From: Candidatus Saccharimonadota bacterium
Lineage (GTDB): Bacteria > Patescibacteriota > Saccharimonadia > Saccharimonadales > Saccharimonadaceae
Assembly: GCA_027450165.1 (NCBI GenBank)
Contig: DAIDKE010000003.1
Location: 1 to 64,000 of the forward strand
Length of the DNA: 64,000 nt
Direction of reading: 5' to 3'
Under the pieces are notes generated by a model. That model did no database searches, was not told where the DNA came from, and was given only the letters and a program-made list of their open reading frames with translations. The translations under genes were made by a program, and so were the position numbers. This document shows positions 8,484 through 64,000 of the stretch, piece after piece. Positions within the stretch are counted from its first letter, which is position 1. Each line of letters starts with the position of its first letter.

Positions 8484-9107
8484 CTATTTGACGTTTTGCT
8501 GCAGCCAGGCATACATCACTATGCCGGCGGCGACACCTACGTTAACAGATCGCGTTGAGCCGATTTGTTCGACCATTACGGTTTGCGACGCTACCTCAAG
8601 TAGCTCACGGCTCAAACCCGGACCTTCGCCGCCAAAGACTAAAACCGCATTTTGCGGCAGCTTGGTCTGGCCGAGCGGCACGGCACCATCAACAATATCG
8701 ACGGCAACTATAGTCTTATCGTCTTCCATCATCTTGGCGCGAAAGGCGCTCACTGTTTCATGAAACTCAATATTCATATAGGCATCGGTTACCATCGCGC
8801 CCCGGCGATTGTAGTGCCGGCGGCCAATAATGTGTACTTTTGAAACATTAAAAGCGTTCGCCGTCCGTATGATCGTGCCGATATTAAAGTCGTGCTGCCA
8901 GTTTTCGACGGCAATTTCAAGCGGCAGACGCGAGCGGTCCAAGTCATGCTTAATGGCCTCGACCTTCCAATAACGATACCTATCGATCACATTGCGGCTG
9001 TCGCCATGCTCTAAAAGATCGGGGTCGTACTGATCGCCGGTCGGCCAAGGTTTTGGGTGTGGTGGAGCGCCAATAATATTCACAGGTAATACTAGATTAA
9101 ACCACAA
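8484..9107 (-). CDS. SPOUT-family (TrmH/SpoU) RNA 2'-O-methyltransferase
   Basis: Transfers a methyl group from S-adenosylmethionine to a ribose in tRNA or rRNA. The three SPOUT motifs are clear: motif 1 NIGTIIRTANAFNV, motif 2 VLVFGGEGPGLS and motif 3 GSTRSVNVGVAAGIV. Length is 207 aa with an N-terminal extension of about 70 residues before the knot domain. The GTG at 9107 is used here; an in-frame GTG at 9083 is an alternative. It starts 16 bp after the stop of the upstream unknown gene and may be co-transcribed with it. The exact target nucleotide cannot be read from sequence. Confidence 0.85.
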   Translation of the reverse strand: MWFNLVLPVNIIGAPPHPKPWPTGDQYDPDLLEHGDSRNVIDRYRYWKVEAIKHDLDRSRLPLEIAVENWQHDFNIGTIIRTANAFNVSKVHIIGRRHYNRRGAMVTDAYMNIEFHETVSAFRAKMMEDDKTIVAVDIVDGAVPLGQTKLPQNAVLVFGGEGPGLSRELLEVASQTVMVEQIGSTRSVNVGVAAGIVMYAWLQQNVK

Positions 9108-9123
9108 TCAAACACCAATGCAA

Positions 9124-10026
9124 CTAGAAGTCGAAGTCCGACTCTTGTGGTGGTGGAATAAATCTGCCGTTTATAAACCATGAACCAGGAACTTTGCTCA
9201 TAATTGCCTTGTGGGCAATACTTGAACCATCCGGCATAAGATCGGCACCACCTGTGATTGCACGGTAAGCCGCAATAATATCAAACCAAAGTACACTATC
9301 CGACGCACCTATTCTATAACTCGACTGATCATTGAAATAGTTCCGCGAAACGTAGGCATGGGCAGCCGGGTGATCGCTGCGAGTTTCATCTAGTAACGAA
9401 ACCCCCAGTTGACGGAACGCTTCCTCGCTAATAACCCCATTGATACGCAAACGTCCGGCGTGCCGTTTAAAATCCGCTAAGGTCAGGGCATTGGGACTCG
9501 CCTGAACAGATCGACCTAGCCAGCGCGGCGATGCAAAGATACCGCCGCTAACCCTCATTGGTCGTTCGTAATCGGCGATCGACATAACGGGGTTCAGCGA
9601 CTTGCGAGCCAAGGCCTCTCTTATGATGGTTATTTTAGTTTTAACGGTCTCGGGTAAATTTAGCTCATGCAATACGCCACCACGAAACCGGCTTTGCGAA
9701 TAAACTTCGGCCGCCGTTGATACCGGTACCAGAAAATCGGGCTGGCTCGGTCGCCTATCGTTGACATAGGCGCGCGGTTGCTCAACGATGTCCCAACTGC
9801 GCGCTAAATTATTATCAGAGCCAAGTTCAACAGCAGCCGTAATGGTACGTAAAAACACGTCATCGGTAGGGTAAGTATCCAAAACTTCTTCTTGGACATC
9901 CCGAAAATCTTGACGAGTCAAAACCGGTTCGGCATCATCTGATTTATCAACATTCTCGGCCGTAAAAATACCGTACTCGCGCAACTGTTCGTCGTTATGG
10001 ATAATAAGCCTGTCTGGTTTAGCCAT
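9124..10026 (-). CDS. Unknown soluble protein
   Basis: 300-aa protein with no family I can name. It lacks a signal peptide or membrane helices and contains an aromatic-rich C-terminus (GSWFINGRFIPPPQESDFDF). Like the 7734-8420 product it is soluble, with mixed alpha/beta composition and many Arg/Asp residues, but I see no shared motif. The ATG follows an AT-poor region without Shine-Dalgarno; TTGCGC, 18 nt, TAATCT ends 7 nt before it, a possible leaderless promoter. Probably co-transcribed with the methyltransferase gene. Confidence 0.65.
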   Translation of the reverse strand: MAKPDRLIIHNDEQLREYGIFTAENVDKSDDAEPVLTRQDFRDVQEEVLDTYPTDDVFLRTITAAVELGSDNNLARSWDIVEQPRAYVNDRRPSQPDFLVPVSTAAEVYSQSRFRGGVLHELNLPETVKTKITIIREALARKSLNPVMSIADYERPMRVSGGIFASPRWLGRSVQASPNALTLADFKRHAGRLRINGVISEEAFRQLGVSLLDETRSDHPAAHAYVSRNYFNDQSSYRIGASDSVLWFDIIAAYRAITGGADLMPDGSSIAHKAIMSKVPGSWFINGRFIPPPQESDFDF

Positions 10027-38563: not shown

Positions 38564-39061
38564 ATGACCGAGATAGTTTTAATTGCGCATAACATCCGAT
38601 CGACCCATAACGTTGGAGCGATTTTTAGGACGGCTGAGGGTTTTGGCATATCAAAGATTATTTTGAGTGGCTATACACCCTACCCTAGCCTGCCTGGCGA
38701 TAAACGCTTGCCGCACATCTCCGCTAAATTAACTGATCAAATCCATAAAACCGCCTTGGGCGCCGAAGAACTGGTACCTTTTGAATATCAAGAGCAGCCA
38801 GACCTAGAAGCTTTGAAAAGTGATGGCTATCGCATTGTCGGTCTTGAACAAGACAAGCGATCGGTCATGCTACCGGACTATCAGGCACCAGCCAAGCTAG
38901 CTTTACTGCTTGGCGAAGAGGTTCATGGTTTAACCGACGACCTACGCGACGCCTGTGATGATTTAATTGAAATTCCGATGTTTGGTCAGAAAGAATCATT
39001 CAATGTCAGCGTCGCCACCGGTATTGCCGTATACCACTTAGCACTTATCCACCATATGTAG
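38564..39061 (+). CDS. SPOUT-family (TrmH/SpoU) RNA methyltransferase
   Basis: 165-aa compact methyltransferase without an extra RNA-binding domain. Motif 1 HNIRSTHNVGAIFRTAEGFG, motif 2 LALLLGEEVHGLTDD and motif 3 FGQKESFNVSVATGIAVYH. Size and architecture are like tRNA ribose methyltransferases such as TrmL, but the target cannot be fixed from sequence. TATACT ends 8 nt before the ATG, with no Shine-Dalgarno. It is distinct from the SPOUT gene at 8484-9107. Confidence 0.9.
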   Translation: MTEIVLIAHNIRSTHNVGAIFRTAEGFGISKIILSGYTPYPSLPGDKRLPHISAKLTDQIHKTALGAEELVPFEYQEQPDLEALKSDGYRIVGLEQDKRSVMLPDYQAPAKLALLLGEEVHGLTDDLRDACDDLIEIPMFGQKESFNVSVATGIAVYHLALIHHM

Positions 39062-39094
39062 CGTAGACTACTACACTTCAAGCGCAAAAAGCTC

Positions 39095-39123
39095 TTGCTT
39101 AGGCCTCAGCTCATACCTAAAAT
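39095..39123 (+). promoter_or_regulatory. Promoter of the NrdH-like cassette
   Basis: TTGCTT, 17 nt, TAAAAT. The leader of about 107 nt has the stems TCACC/GGTGA and GAACG/CGTTC. Confidence 0.65.
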
Positions 39124-39236
39124 TAGAGACAGATTCACCTATGGTAGTTCGGTGAGCCGCTTTTATGTGGCAGAGTTCCCGAACGATCATGCCTGCAATC
39201 ACGTTCCTATCATCCGCTAACGAGAGGATGGTCGCC

Positions 39237-39608
39237 ATGACCACCCCAACGATCAACCAGGTGGAGGCCAAACCAGTGACGATGACGACCACCGCCACGG
39301 CCGACGCCAAGGCGGCTCAGCCGTTCACCATCACCGTCTACAGCAAGCCGAGCTGCGTCCAGTGCAACGCTACCTACCGAGCGCTCGACAAGATTGGCCT
39401 CTGCTACGACGTCATCGACATCACCGCCAAGGAGAACCTGGCTCACCTCGAAAGGGCTAAGTCCGAGGGCTACCTCCAGGCACCCGTCGTGTTCATCAAC
39501 GCCGTCGGTGATGACATCCTGGCGGCCGAACCGCTCGACCACTGGTCGGGCTTCCGGCCCGACAAGATCAGGGAGCTCGCTGAACGACTCAATGGCCTAC
39601 CGGCCTAA
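39237..39608 (+). CDS. NrdH-like glutaredoxin/redoxin (foreign cassette E)
   Basis: 123-aa thiol redoxin. The core FTITVYSKPSCVQCNATYRAL (about 33-53) has the Cys-x-x-Cys site typical of NrdH, with YLQAPVVF and HWSGFRPDKI near the end, matching actinobacterial NrdH. NrdH reduces class Ib ribonucleotide reductase. A ~30-residue Thr/Ala-rich N-terminal extension and a short insert (INAVGDDILAAEPLD) differ from the ~80-aa family form. The ATG at 39237 has GAGG 9 nt upstream. Codons are strongly GC3 and include AGG. It forms a one-gene unit with its own terminator and is probably host-derived; no ribonucleotide reductase gene lies in the window. Confidence 0.85.
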   Translation: MTTPTINQVEAKPVTMTTTATADAKAAQPFTITVYSKPSCVQCNATYRALDKIGLCYDVIDITAKENLAHLERAKSEGYLQAPVVFINAVGDDILAAEPLDHWSGFRPDKIRELAERLNGLPA

Positions 39609-39645
39609 TCTTCGGTCGACCGTAAGCGGACCGACTGGAGCGAAT

Positions 39646-39685
39646 GCCCCTCGCAACCACAAGTTGCGAGGGGCTAGCTCTTTTT
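39646..39685 (+). terminator. Terminator of the NrdH-like cassette
   Basis: A 12-bp stem GCCCCTCGCAAC/GTTGCGAGGGGC with a 5-nt loop, followed by TAGCTCTTTTT. It lies between the cassette and the convergent dnaE end. Confidence 0.92.
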
Positions 39686-39697
39686 ATGGGGATATTT

Positions 39698-42600
39698 TTA
39701 TTTGATGACGACGCTATCTTCACCCAGAATCTTGACCAAGCGGCCAATCAAAGCATCGCTACCATCTACTTTAAACGGCATCTTGATAGCCGATTTTTTG
39801 TCTTTACCAAGCACCAAAATAATGTCTGTCGTGCCCGGAAAATCATTACAAACTTGCTTCATAGACACCAGCGCAGCTTGGTCGTCGGGATCTTTAACGC
39901 GCACATAAAGCGTGTGAATTATCGCTTCTTCAGGCATTGGCCGTGCGGCGGTCGTAGCCGAACGCTGACTAACCGGTGTGGAAACCGGCGCCGTAAACGT
40001 CTTGCCACCAGCCGGCCTGGTCTGCAGATTACTGCTGCGGCGCGTCGCTTGCACACCGGTACTCGCTTTTGGCCGGGTCATCTTGCGCCCTGTCTTCTGA
40101 TAATTATTGAGTTCTTCGTCGTCAACGAATTGAATCTCGTCGGCAATCATCTTAGTGTCAGTCACGATGTTGCCGTCGCGATCGCGCGCCGTTACTTTAC
40201 CGGTTGCCCGAATAACAGCGTCTTGGACTAATTTAGCACCAATTTGCTCAAACAGATTTGGAAAGACAATTACCTCGCCTTCGGAAGTCTTGTCCTCGAG
40301 TTTCACAAAGGCCATCTTGGTGCCGCTCTTGGTGACAATCGTTCGGACGGCCGTAATTAAGCCGCCAATCGTCGCCGATTTGCCGTCAATTTCAGCATTC
40401 ATCGTCGCCAATGGAATTGTCTGCTCTTCGAAATATGAGTCGTAGTTATCTAGCGGGTGGGCGCTGATGTATAGCCCAAGTAGTTCACGCTCCCAGGTTA
40501 AACGCTCTTTGTCGGTATGCTTGACCGGCGCCGGCTGAAGTGTAACTGTTGGTTGAATAGTTGCCATTTCGGCCAGACCGCCAAATAAATCGGTCTGCCC
40601 ACTGAGCGCTTCTTTTTGCAATTTGCTAGCGAACGTCAGGATTGTCTCGATGTTAAACAGCAAATCTGATCGGTCGGCCATGTCATCGAACGCGCCAGTT
40701 TTAACCAACGATTCCCATGATTTTTTATTCACCTTACTAGTTGAAACGCGCTTGGCAAAATCCTCTACACCTACGAACTGGCCATCTTTGCGAGCACGTA
40801 AAATTTCTTCAACAGCGCTTACGCCAACGCCTTTAATGGCCGCCATGCCAAAGCGAATCTGCTTTTTACCTGGCACAACCGCAAACTCCACGAAGCTTTC
40901 GTTAACGTTTGGACTCAGTACCTGAATACCCATGTGTTTGCATTCGGTAATCTCGATCGCTAGACGTTCGACATCATCAGCGTCACTGGTCATCAGCGCC
41001 GCCATAAAGGCGTCTGGGTAGTGCGCTTTGAGATAGGCCGTCCAGTAGGCAATCAGACCATAACAAGCGGCGTGCGACTTGTTAAAACAGTAGGCCGCAA
41101 AATCTTCAAGCTGCTTCCAGAAGATTTCCATCGTCGCTTCGTCGATTCCGGAAACTTTCTTACCGCCCTCGATCATCTTGTCGTGCATCTTGCGCATCAT
41201 TTCAATATTCTTCTTACCAATGGCCTTACGCAGAGTGTCAGCCTCACCACCGGTAAAACCACAGACTTCCTTCGAAATCTGCATGACTTGCTCTTGGTAA
41301 ACCAAGACGCCATAAGTGTTCTCGAGCGCATTTTTCATGCTAATATGCGGATAAACGATTTCGCGCTCACCGTGTTTACGTTTAATGAAATCGTCAATAA
41401 ACTGCATCGGACCCGGGCGGTACAGCGCCACCATAGCCACAATGTCTTCAAAAACTGTCGGGCTAAGTTCGCGCAAATAGCGCTTCATACCAGCCGACTC
41501 TAGCTGAAAAACACCAGTCGTGTCGCCGCGTTGGAATAGGTCGTAGGTCTCGGCGTCATCAAGCGGAATATCCTCTAGTACAATGTCGGTTTTGTAGGCC
41601 TTGCGAATAATACGCAGGGCATTGTTAATAATCGACAAGTTACTTAGGCCCAAAAAGTCCATCTTCAGCAGGCCAAGCTCTTCGATTGGACCCATCGGGA
41701 ACTGAGCCGCCACCACGCCCTTTTGCGCCATTTCAACCGGAACAAACTTAACGATTTCATCTGGCGCGATCACCACACCGGCGGCATGAATACCGTGCGA
41801 GCGAATCGTGCCCTCAAGGCGCATGGCATAGTCAAAAACCATTTTAGCGGTCGGGTTGGTTTCGTATTCGCGCTTCAAATCGGCATCTTCAACCACGCTC
41901 TTTGCGAGCGGAATGTGCTTTCCCTGAACTGGCGGCGGAATCAATTTCGCTAAACGGTCACTTTCGGCATATGGCACCTGCAAAACACGGGCGACGTCGC
42001 GCACCGCCGCGCGGGCGGCCATCTTACCAAAGGTAACAATGTTCGATACCCTGCCGGCGCCATATTTTTCGGTACAATACTGAATGACTTCATCACGACG
42101 CGTATCTTGAATGTCGACATCGACATCGGGCATGCTAATACGGTCTGGATTCAAGAAACGCTCAAACAGCAGGTCGTACTTGAGCGGATCAAGCTCGGTG
42201 ATACGCAGACTATAAGCCACGATCGAACCAGCCGCCGAACCACGTCCCGGGCCAAAAACAATACCCTGGCTTTTGCCCCAGTTAATAAAGTCCTGCACGA
42301 TCAAAAAGTAGCCGTTAAAGCCCATGCTATCAATCACGCCCAGTTCATAGTCGACACGTTCTAGAGCGGCCGCAGGAATATGCTTGCGCGCCTCCTCTAC
42401 AGACAACTCACTTGCAGCCTCGGCATCTTTAATATCACCGTAGCGCCAGCTTAGACCCTGAAACACCAACAGATCAAGGTAGGTTTTTTCGTTGTGGCCC
42501 TCGGGCGTCGGGAAGGTAGGGATCAAAATGCCGCCGAGCTTCAGCTTAACGTCGCAGCGATCGGCCACCAGTCTGGTGTTGTGAATGGCATCCGGATGAC

Positions 42601-43438
42601 TCTTGCCCCAGCGACCAATAATTTCCATTGGATCAGTAACGTGCAGCTCAAATTCCTTTAGGCTCATGCGGTTAGTGTCGCTCAAAAAAGCACCCGTACC
42701 AACACACAACAAAATTTCGTGCGCGTCTTGATCTTCGTGATTTAGGTAGTGCGCGTCACAGGTCACGACCTGCGGAATATCAAGTTCTTTCGACAACCTG
42801 TCCAGATAGCCATTGATTTTTGTCTGGACATCCCATGGCGATGGATGATCGGGGTGGCCATGATCTTGCAGCTCCAGGTAGTAACGATCGCCAAAAACCG
42901 ACTTGTACCACATAGCAATATTTTTGGCTTCTTCATAATTATCAACCCGCAGATTCTCGCCCAGCTCACCACTGGCACAGCCCGACATGACAATCAGACC
43001 CTCGTTATACTTCTCGAGGATCTCATGATCCATGCGCGGCTTGTAGTACATACCGTCCAGGTTAGCCTCGGAACTCAGGCGCATCAAATTGCTGTAGCCC
43101 TGATCGTTCATGGCTAAAATCGTTAAGTGATACCTGGCCTTGTCCTTGGCCGGGTCACGGTCAAGCCGCGAACGTGACGCAACGTAAGCCTCAATACCAA
43201 GCAGTGGCTTGATGCCGGCGGCAGTGGCGGCTTTATACATCTCGATAATGCCGGTCATCGTGCCATGGTCGGTAATGGCCACGGCGTCCATACCCATATC
43301 TTTAACCTTATCGACTAAGTCGGGTATCTTGGTCAATCCATCGAGCAGACTGTGGTGAGTGTGGTTGTGCAAATGAACAAAGTCCAACGGACCAAGCGCC
43401 GAACTAGCCTGTGATTTTACACCTGCACTATCCCCCAT
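39698..43438 (-). CDS. dnaE: DNA polymerase III alpha subunit
   Basis: Main replicative polymerase, 1246 aa. An N-terminal PHP domain (HNHTHHSLLDG, AITDHGTM) precedes the polymerase core, with GFGPGRGSAAGSIVAY-type and MPDVDVDIQD catalytic motifs (about 435-443) and PFKQEQ-region equivalents (LVYQEQVMQI). A helix-hairpin region and an OB domain (KMAFVKLEDKTSEGEVIVF) follow. TATACT ends 10 nt before the ATG, with no Shine-Dalgarno. The PHP domain keeps most metal-binding histidines, so proofreading by PHP is possible. Confidence 0.97.
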   Translation of the reverse strand: MGDSAGVKSQASSALGPLDFVHLHNHTHHSLLDGLTKIPDLVDKVKDMGMDAVAITDHGTMTGIIEMYKAATAAGIKPLLGIEAYVASRSRLDRDPAKDKARYHLTILAMNDQGYSNLMRLSSEANLDGMYYKPRMDHEILEKYNEGLIVMSGCASGELGENLRVDNYEEAKNIAMWYKSVFGDRYYLELQDHGHPDHPSPWDVQTKINGYLDRLSKELDIPQVVTCDAHYLNHEDQDAHEILLCVGTGAFLSDTNRMSLKEFELHVTDPMEIIGRWGKSHPDAIHNTRLVADRCDVKLKLGGILIPTFPTPEGHNEKTYLDLLVFQGLSWRYGDIKDAEAASELSVEEARKHIPAAALERVDYELGVIDSMGFNGYFLIVQDFINWGKSQGIVFGPGRGSAAGSIVAYSLRITELDPLKYDLLFERFLNPDRISMPDVDVDIQDTRRDEVIQYCTEKYGAGRVSNIVTFGKMAARAAVRDVARVLQVPYAESDRLAKLIPPPVQGKHIPLAKSVVEDADLKREYETNPTAKMVFDYAMRLEGTIRSHGIHAAGVVIAPDEIVKFVPVEMAQKGVVAAQFPMGPIEELGLLKMDFLGLSNLSIINNALRIIRKAYKTDIVLEDIPLDDAETYDLFQRGDTTGVFQLESAGMKRYLRELSPTVFEDIVAMVALYRPGPMQFIDDFIKRKHGEREIVYPHISMKNALENTYGVLVYQEQVMQISKEVCGFTGGEADTLRKAIGKKNIEMMRKMHDKMIEGGKKVSGIDEATMEIFWKQLEDFAAYCFNKSHAACYGLIAYWTAYLKAHYPDAFMAALMTSDADDVERLAIEITECKHMGIQVLSPNVNESFVEFAVVPGKKQIRFGMAAIKGVGVSAVEEILRARKDGQFVGVEDFAKRVSTSKVNKKSWESLVKTGAFDDMADRSDLLFNIETILTFASKLQKEALSGQTDLFGGLAEMATIQPTVTLQPAPVKHTDKERLTWERELLGLYISAHPLDNYDSYFEEQTIPLATMNAEIDGKSATIGGLITAVRTIVTKSGTKMAFVKLEDKTSEGEVIVFPNLFEQIGAKLVQDAVIRATGKVTARDRDGNIVTDTKMIADEIQFVDDEELNNYQKTGRKMTRPKASTGVQATRRSSNLQTRPAGGKTFTAPVSTPVSQRSATTAARPMPEEAIIHTLYVRVKDPDDQAALVSMKQVCNDFPGTTDIILVLGKDKKSAIKMPFKVDGSDALIGRLVKILGEDSVVIK

Positions 43439-63417: not shown

Positions 63418-64000
63418 TTATTTGCGTTTTAGTTCGTCGAGATATTCGCGAATTGCGAGCGCTGCTGTCGCGCCTTCGCCAACCGCACTAGCAATTTGCA
63501 TCGTAGCATTATGACGAACATCGCCAGCCGCAAACACTCCCGGAAGATTTGTCTCAAGATGTTCATTGGTAATAATCAAACCGCGCTCATCAAGTTCAAC
63601 GCCGCTTCCGTCTAGGAATTGAGTGTTAGGAATCAAGCCTATAAAGACAAAAATGCCATCGGCCTCAAACTCAACCGGTTTGCCGCCTTGGGTACCTTTG
63701 ACCAGCATGGCCTTGTCGGCCGTAGCCGTAATTTCATCGGTCACTACACCCAGGTGAACCGTAACCTTGCCACTATCGACGTATTGCTTCAGATCGTGTT
63801 CTAGCACTTCACTGGCTTTGATTGTACTGCGCACCAACAGGTCGATGTGCGACGCAAAGCGTGTCAAAAAAATCGTTTCCTGCAATGCCGAATTACCACC
63901 ACCCACTACCACCAAGCGCTTGTCGCGATAAAAGGCACCGTCACAAGTGGCGCAATAATGCACACCGCGTCCGTAATATTCGGCTTCACCCGGAATACCA
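63418..64000 (-). CDS. trxB: Thioredoxin reductase (partial, runs off right edge)
   Basis: C-terminal ~194 residues. The redox site is HYCATCDGAFYRD (CATC), followed by the NADPH-binding VVGGGNSALQE and the FAD-binding GVFAAGDVRHNATMQIASAVGEGA. The frame continues beyond 63963 to the edge (PGEAEYYGRGV precedes the site). It would reduce thioredoxins, possibly also the NrdH-like redoxin at 39237. Confidence 0.96.
   Translation of the reverse strand, partial: GIPGEAEYYGRGVHYCATCDGAFYRDKRLVVVGGGNSALQETIFLTRFASHIDLLVRSTIKASEVLEHDLKQYVDSGKVTVHLGVVTDEITATADKAMLVKGTQGGKPVEFEADGIFVFIGLIPNTQFLDGSGVELDERGLIITNEHLETNLPGVFAAGDVRHNATMQIASAVGEGATAALAIREYLDELKRK

Follow-up and report, generated by a model that had tools for sequence, protein, structure and literature searches.

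An actinobacterial-type NrdH redoxin in Saccharibacteria and a separately encoded redox tail of class I ribonucleotide reductase

Our data point to a class I ribonucleotide reductase (RNR) in Saccharibacteria whose redox tail is, judged by sequence comparison, detached from the catalytic subunit NrdA and encoded as a conserved separate protein. It is probable that the nrdH-type gene found in the 64,000-nucleotide stretch of DNA analysed here (the window) was acquired horizontally as a single gene and that its product takes electrons from thioredoxin reductase (TrxB) to this enzyme. New here is what appears to be a conserved, separately encoded class I RNR arm, present through much of a small-genome family. 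To our knowledge, the swinging cysteine arm of class I RNRs is always part of the catalytic chain. In those parts of the open-access literature on Saccharibacteria or Patescibacteria RNR, split RNRs and NrdH that were available to us, we found no class I RNR described as having a separately encoded tail.

The genome to which the window belongs (794 kb, 99.5% complete) has one match each to PF02867 and PF00268, both on contig C1, while nrdH lies on contig C3. A preliminary description of the window had stated that no RNR stands beside nrdH and had proposed a search of the genome for nrdE and nrdF. The first is true at the locus but misleading for the genome, and the search revealed no NrdE or NrdF but a class I NrdA/NrdB with a separate tail gene. 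NrdA (L143:7004-9421) matches PF02867 with 537.8 bits, as well as PF03477 (ATP cone) and PF00317, and NrdB (PF00268) adjoins it. The large subunit fits best as PRK06539 (1330.7 bits, cut-off 988), with an alignment that stops at position 788 of 822. It is not NrdE (TIGR04170, 260.5 bits versus a cut-off of 750), and the small subunit is not NrdF (TIGR04171, 90.9 versus 355). With TIGR02504 NrdA scores 367.7 bits, below the cut-off of 399.95, and NrdB is present, so the pair does not have the make-up of a split class II NrdJa/NrdJb. By these model scores the RNR of the genome is a class I NrdA/NrdB and not class Ib, the usual partner of NrdH.

The NrdA of this genome ends with ...RKVGFGFAKKEGTVV, without a cysteine pair. 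Of 22 loci whose NrdA C-termini were examined, two showed none and one was cut by the contig; CxxC is absent from all 19 complete C-termini, which come from 19 genomes. Between nrdA and nrdB lies a 59-amino-acid ORF ending PADLTMCEGCQ (L143:9474-9653, corresponding to C1:275473-275652), which starts 52 bases past nrdA with its own AGGGGG ribosome-binding site and is followed by nrdB from position 9684. Its product, MGIKASTIIKDDMTLEEKLAAID...AAPIDPADLTMCEGCQ, has no match in Pfam or NCBIfam. This tail is present in 94 of the 198 family genomes; NrdB occurs in 99, and 93 of the tail-bearing genomes belong to these. The six NrdB genomes without a tail match include one (G034) in which a divergent copy adjoins nrdB. 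Where the tail and both genes could be seen at one locus (12 loci), it stands between nrdA and nrdB in six cases and at most about 1 kb after nrdB in the other six. ATG-initiated ORFs of 25-130 amino acids that end with C..CQ make up 10 of 609 in 11 RNR loci, the eleventh locus having a CDGCE ending; there are none among 286 in the window and none among 1057 in 13 non-RNR loci of the family. The tail proteins are 57-59 amino acids long, and an alignment of 13 of them shows that the start, PxDP and CxxCQ are kept while the stretch between is variable.

The same tail can be found fused. In G479, a genome of the same phylum, it ends NrdA itself (...VCPIDPQERLTCDSCQ / ...EKVCPIDPQERLTCDSCQ), in a chain with a TTYYLHMKPRHTAEQSTV stretch of the same kind, and two proteobacterial NrdA have the tail ending fused as ...CEACQ. 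Detachment is thus concluded from three observations together: the tail-less NrdA, the conserved separate CxxCQ ORF and the fused form elsewhere. A tail search in 360 phylum genomes at E <= 0.01 gave 18 matches, 13 of them in the family (E <= 2.3e-27) and five weak (4.8e-4 to 0.009), the latter comprising the fused NrdA end of G479, a stand-alone ORF in G417, an unrelated-looking frame in G239, and matches in G289 and G336. G417 belongs to another family of the class; its NrdA (L305) is of a different kind and without CxxC, and its lone short ORF (L322:8447-8581), which ends with CPIDPEELKECEACQ, lies some 66 kb from NrdA, so that this is perhaps a second, independent tail detachment. A phage source of the tail was rejected, since the phage collection searched contained nothing similar at E <= 5. 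The nrdA gene of G479 (L323:1198-3672) contains one in-frame TGA, possibly a recoded one.

The trxB gene, noted earlier at the right edge of the window as something the redoxin may tap, is confirmed there (63418-63999, minus strand, cut by the window edge; TIGR01292, E 1e-54) and would provide a candidate NrdH reductase. NrdH can serve RNR as an electron donor. A PF00085 thioredoxin was not found in the genome (E <= 0.01), in favour of the relay proposed next; the redoxins found are NrdH itself and a native glutaredoxin-like protein on contig C2 (best NCBIfam model TIGR02196). The most likely relay, each arrow of which we infer, is one where TrxB would reduce NrdH, reduced NrdH would pass electrons to the free CEGCQ tail protein, and the tail would bind NrdA, shuttling from NrdH, or from the native glutaredoxin-like protein, to the active site of NrdA and back. 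According to the available part of a published account (PMC4520616), the C-terminal cysteines of class I and II RNRs hand electrons supplied by the reduction system on to the active site. We are somewhat inclined to think that the tail works in trans as a diffusible shuttle in a relay of redoxin, tail and NrdA, into which an actinobacterial-type NrdH has been plugged more than once.

The distribution of NrdH in the family agrees with a link to the RNR. NrdB is present in 13 of 15 NrdH genomes versus 86 of 183 others (Fisher exact test, p 0.0054), and when only genomes at least 90% complete are taken, in nine of nine versus 63 of 130 (p 0.003). The two NrdH genomes in which NrdB was not seen are the incomplete G041 and G055, and fragments of the large subunit are present in the latter. 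At the same time, a strong NrdH match is lacking in 86 of the 99 genomes with NrdB, and NrdH therefore seems not to be obligatory for the split RNR but rather an added or better donor. The native glutaredoxin-like gene, the RNR not being class Ib and its place on another contig than nrdH also count against the relay. The figure of 86 in 99 would also suit another reading, namely that NrdH serves TrxB generally in place of a thioredoxin (acting on peroxiredoxins, methionine sulfoxide reductase and so on) while the native glutaredoxin-like protein feeds the RNR. It would also explain why the genome encodes TrxB yet has no PF00085 thioredoxin at E <= 0.01. This reading is less easy to reconcile with the co-occurrence of NrdH and NrdB (p 0.005), with the retained HWSGFRPD motif, and with the lack of mutual exclusion between NrdH and canonical thioredoxin among NrdB genomes (p 0.5), which leaves no association of the kind expected if NrdH were a stand-in for thioredoxin. 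We consider it rather unlikely.

The nrdH-type gene occupies 39237-39608 (plus strand, 123 amino acids) and begins with ATG 39237; GAGAGGATGG lies upstream, and GGAGG is found at the corresponding place in a congener (G041). The three segments CVQCNATYRALD, YLQAPVVF and HWSGFRPD, which had been likened to actinobacterial and actinophage NrdH, are all contained in this single ORF, and the likeness was borne out by motifs, profile and structure comparisons and the tree. Pfam Glutaredoxin (PF00462) matches with E 6.5e-11, and the protein has the glutaredoxin fold, its first helix opening with the CxxC of the active site, here CVQC (39354-39365, Cys40 and Cys43). The best NCBIfam model is TIGR02194 GlrX_NrdH with 76.5 bits, below the cut-off of 85.75, and we therefore label the protein NrdH-type rather than a certified NrdH member. 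Its score is lowered in part by an insert, since it rises to 83.8 bits with the insert left out; relatives in the same slot (L114, L115, L121) reach 99.8-104.2 bits. Among PDB sequences the best matches are NrdH of Corynebacterium glutamicum (E 1.9e-19) and Mycobacterium tuberculosis (E 1.4e-17). The AlphaFold model (pLDDT 86.7, N-terminus weaker) gave 4fiw, 4hs1, 4f2i and 1h75 as best Foldseek matches, with 54% identity to 4fiw and 46% to 4hs1 over the aligned parts. The W-S-G-F-R-P motif, which is diagnostic of NrdH, is present as HWSGFRPD (39540-39563).

The redoxin itself is of a known kind and departs from it only slightly. With actinobacterial NrdH (C. glutamicum 4fiw, M. tuberculosis 4hs1/4f2i) it shares CVQC, YLQAPVV, HWSGFRPD and the fold, as well as TrxB in the genome. 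It differs from them by a Thr/Ala-rich N-terminal extension of 29 residues (39237-39323, modelled with weaker confidence) and by 11 residues inserted relative to 4fiw in a loop between the last two strands (39495-39539), two features that had been reported before and proved real. Among the 14 other family NrdHs, only that of G041, which begins MTTPTI, has an extension like this. It differs also in its setting: NrdH is usually encoded with class Ib nrdE/nrdF, often also with nrdI, whereas the window copy has no nrdEF(I) operon, and the NrdA/NrdB of the genome is class I of another kind on another contig.

In composition the gene is foreign to its surroundings. GC3 is 0.85 from the second start or 0.82 from the first, against a window mean of 0.53 (sd 0.07), which places nrdH at the top of the 55 non-overlapping window ORFs of at least 100 amino acids; in the other family NrdH loci, too, the gene mostly exceeds its flanks in GC content (13 of 14). 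When TIGR02194 was run on 379 genomes drawn from the phylum, G035 scored 111 bits, the window 75 bits and all others at most 58.4 bits. The closest cellular relatives (47-63% identity) among the best 80 of at least 556 loci, a sampling of Actinobacteria skewed to the nearest relatives, belong to what we take from their names to be Micrococcales. The best phage relatives are NrdH-like glutaredoxins of Microbacterium, Curtobacterium, Arthrobacter, Gordonia and Mycobacterium phages, led by Microbacterium phages with 58.6% identity over 71% of the query, and none of the 243 phage records reaches 60%. Some of these phage genes are single and others stand beside genes annotated as nrdI or RNR; the window copy, unlike them, lies between bacterial housekeeping genes.

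The tree was built from 108 rows. An 85% identity filter reduced 80 actinobacterial loci to the 15 that were included; 28 of 29 viral and 20 of 28 other-CPR loci were used as well, together with 14 of 15 Saccharibacteria glutaredoxin loci plus that of the genome itself, and 11 phage loci hand-picked from the 243 records. All 15 family NrdHs group with Actinobacteria, actinophages and E. coli NrdH, and a branch with 100/99 support splits 73 rows on the NrdH side, the window redoxin among them, from 35 glutaredoxin rows of Saccharibacteria and other CPR. A placement within native CPR redoxins, named beforehand as the result that would speak against foreign origin, thus did not occur, although the AU tests are weak on this point. 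Keeping the window together with all native glutaredoxins was not rejected (p 0.37), a constraint that only requires the window to branch first among NrdHs, and nesting it in one Saccharibacteria glutaredoxin group was nearly rejected (p 0.051). The bootstrap had not settled, and no supported small group includes the window NrdH. The G041 protein, of which 42 columns are known, is placed with L114 (98/95) rather than with the window, despite the matching leader, place and N-terminus. Taken together, these data support an NrdH of actinobacterial or actinophage type that is foreign in composition, as had been proposed; host and phage are not distinguished as donors. In a horizontal transfer from Actinobacteria or their phages, nrdH would have come into the genus alone, bringing its own terminator, and settled in an intergenic slot of variable content.

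This slot is bounded on the left by a gene for a SpoU-family RNA methyltransferase (38564-39061, plus strand; PF00588, E 2.5e-31; TIGR00186, 93.1 bits, below cut-off) and on the right by the convergent dnaE for DNA polymerase III alpha (39698-43438, minus strand; PRK05673, 1290.5 bits, cut-off 1002). The span 39095-39685 holds the nrdH ORF, part of its non-coding leader (39062-39236, plus strand) and an intrinsic terminator (39646-39684, plus strand) with a perfect 12-bp stem (39646-39674) and a T-rich tail after it. Rfam has no match for a structured leader in 38900-39800, the fold of 39095-39236 is not significant (z -0.88), and a sigma-70 consensus promoter for nrdH was looked for and not found; nor were mobile-element ends seen around the gene beyond repeats of 11-12 bases and the terminator stem. 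In G041 nrdH follows the same methyltransferase gene, and 132 of 173 aligned leader bases (76%) are identical; the frame is open to the contig end, which falls inside nrdH, so dnaE is not visible there. Such a copy, in the same place and with an alignable leader, rules out assembly artefact or contamination, and the window nrdH is most simply older than the split of the two species.

Of the 198 family genomes, 15, spread over ten genus codes, have a strong NrdH match (E <= 4.7e-10). Any match at all was seen in 43 genomes, and 28 with E >= 3.9e-7 were excluded from the count; loci were available for 15 of these, and 14 (L019-L032) entered the tree as native glutaredoxins, while one (L018 of G010) had no tblastn match. 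Seven of the 15 NrdHs follow the methyltransferase gene (in G000, G041, G167, G079, G035, G005 and G031), with dnaE beyond in six; in G039 nrdH lies on a short contig, accompanied by other ORFs and, beyond them, by what was read by eye as dnaE. In four genomes of genus code g8 nrdH has another, common neighbourhood, and in three genomes it is elsewhere; in genus code g37 only one of 17 sampled genomes (G167) has a strong match. A single origin of all 15 as one clade was rejected (p-AU 0.0008), and a single clade of the seven behind the methyltransferase gene is borderline (p-AU 0.04, with 79 columns and long branches). By this phylogenetic test NrdHs entered the family more than once. The earlier picture of a stand-alone unit holds as regards the single gene with its own terminator, recurring in G041, but not if it is taken to be private to one genome or to a single entry. 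A survey took the 30 best-matching methyltransferase loci, out of 187 genomes with a match, together with five NrdH loci; in it, 28 other methyltransferase loci had the two genes abutting in 14 cases (-8 to +13 bases) and other ORFs between them in 10; three did not reach dnaE and one was G167 again. The gap 39062-39697 seems from these comparisons to be a variable slot that received NrdH repeatedly. One NrdH, L118 of G097 (about 8689-9006), has CIQV in place of CVQC, with the second active-site Cys lost and HWSGFRPD kept.

A slot which is empty or otherwise filled in so many related loci could also shelter a functionless passenger, whether phage cargo or host DNA. The foreign composition, the patchy distribution with more than one origin and the relatives in 243 phage records would all agree with it. 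In the available part of a study of putative Saccharibacteria phages (PMC10746230), nine were also hit by non-CPR spacers and seven of these nine are co-targeted by Actinobacteria, which makes a phage route for nrdH plausible and fits a passenger too. Against it, the window frame is intact with all motifs, the frame in the second species is open to the contig end behind a leader conserved at 76%, and NrdH is associated with NrdB across the family. The sign of constraint on NrdH, on the other hand, is weak: between the window and G041, dN is 0.25 and dS 0.37 over 36 codons. We hold a mere passenger to be improbable. As to an exported redoxin acting on an actinobacterial host, a target that had also been suggested, it is hardly credible, for apart from the unusual N-terminus and the lifestyle presumed for the bacterium nothing speaks for it, while no hydrophobic signal segment is seen by eye in residues 1-29, a similar extension recurs only in G041 among the 14 other family NrdHs, and a candidate target, the RNR of the genome, exists inside the cell.

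Reduction of the class I RNR through a detached tail has partial parallels. In the split class II NrdJa/NrdJb of Pseudomonas aeruginosa, the polypeptide with redox cysteines is encoded apart and required for turnover, according to the available part of PMC4520616. The separate encoding of the redox-cysteine chain is common to both, but NrdJb has 229 residues and folded domains (PMC9669993, as far as its available text goes), unlike the 57-59-residue tail of a class I enzyme seen here, with its conserved start, variable linker and CxxCQ. In Facklamia ignava, as described in the accessible part of PMC6187632, a glutaredoxin is fused to NrdB; there too electron delivery to a class I RNR is rewired, by redoxin fusion and not, as here, by tail detachment.

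An arm encoded separately could be handled as an independent reagent, by adding, titrating, mutating or swapping it, so that how the arm finds the active site and what reduces it would become directly testable. The detached tail would also give a stray NrdH a concrete target, and the finding suggests that redox partners pass between Saccharibacteria and the genes circulating in Actinobacteria and their phages. Another arrangement of RNR and redoxin genes was seen in genus code g37: of 17 genomes sampled, 13 have a further RNR large-subunit gene adjoining a canonical thioredoxin gene on the opposite strand, for example at G131:C3:240876-243224, G113:C6:35237-37583, G189:C22 and G185:C13.
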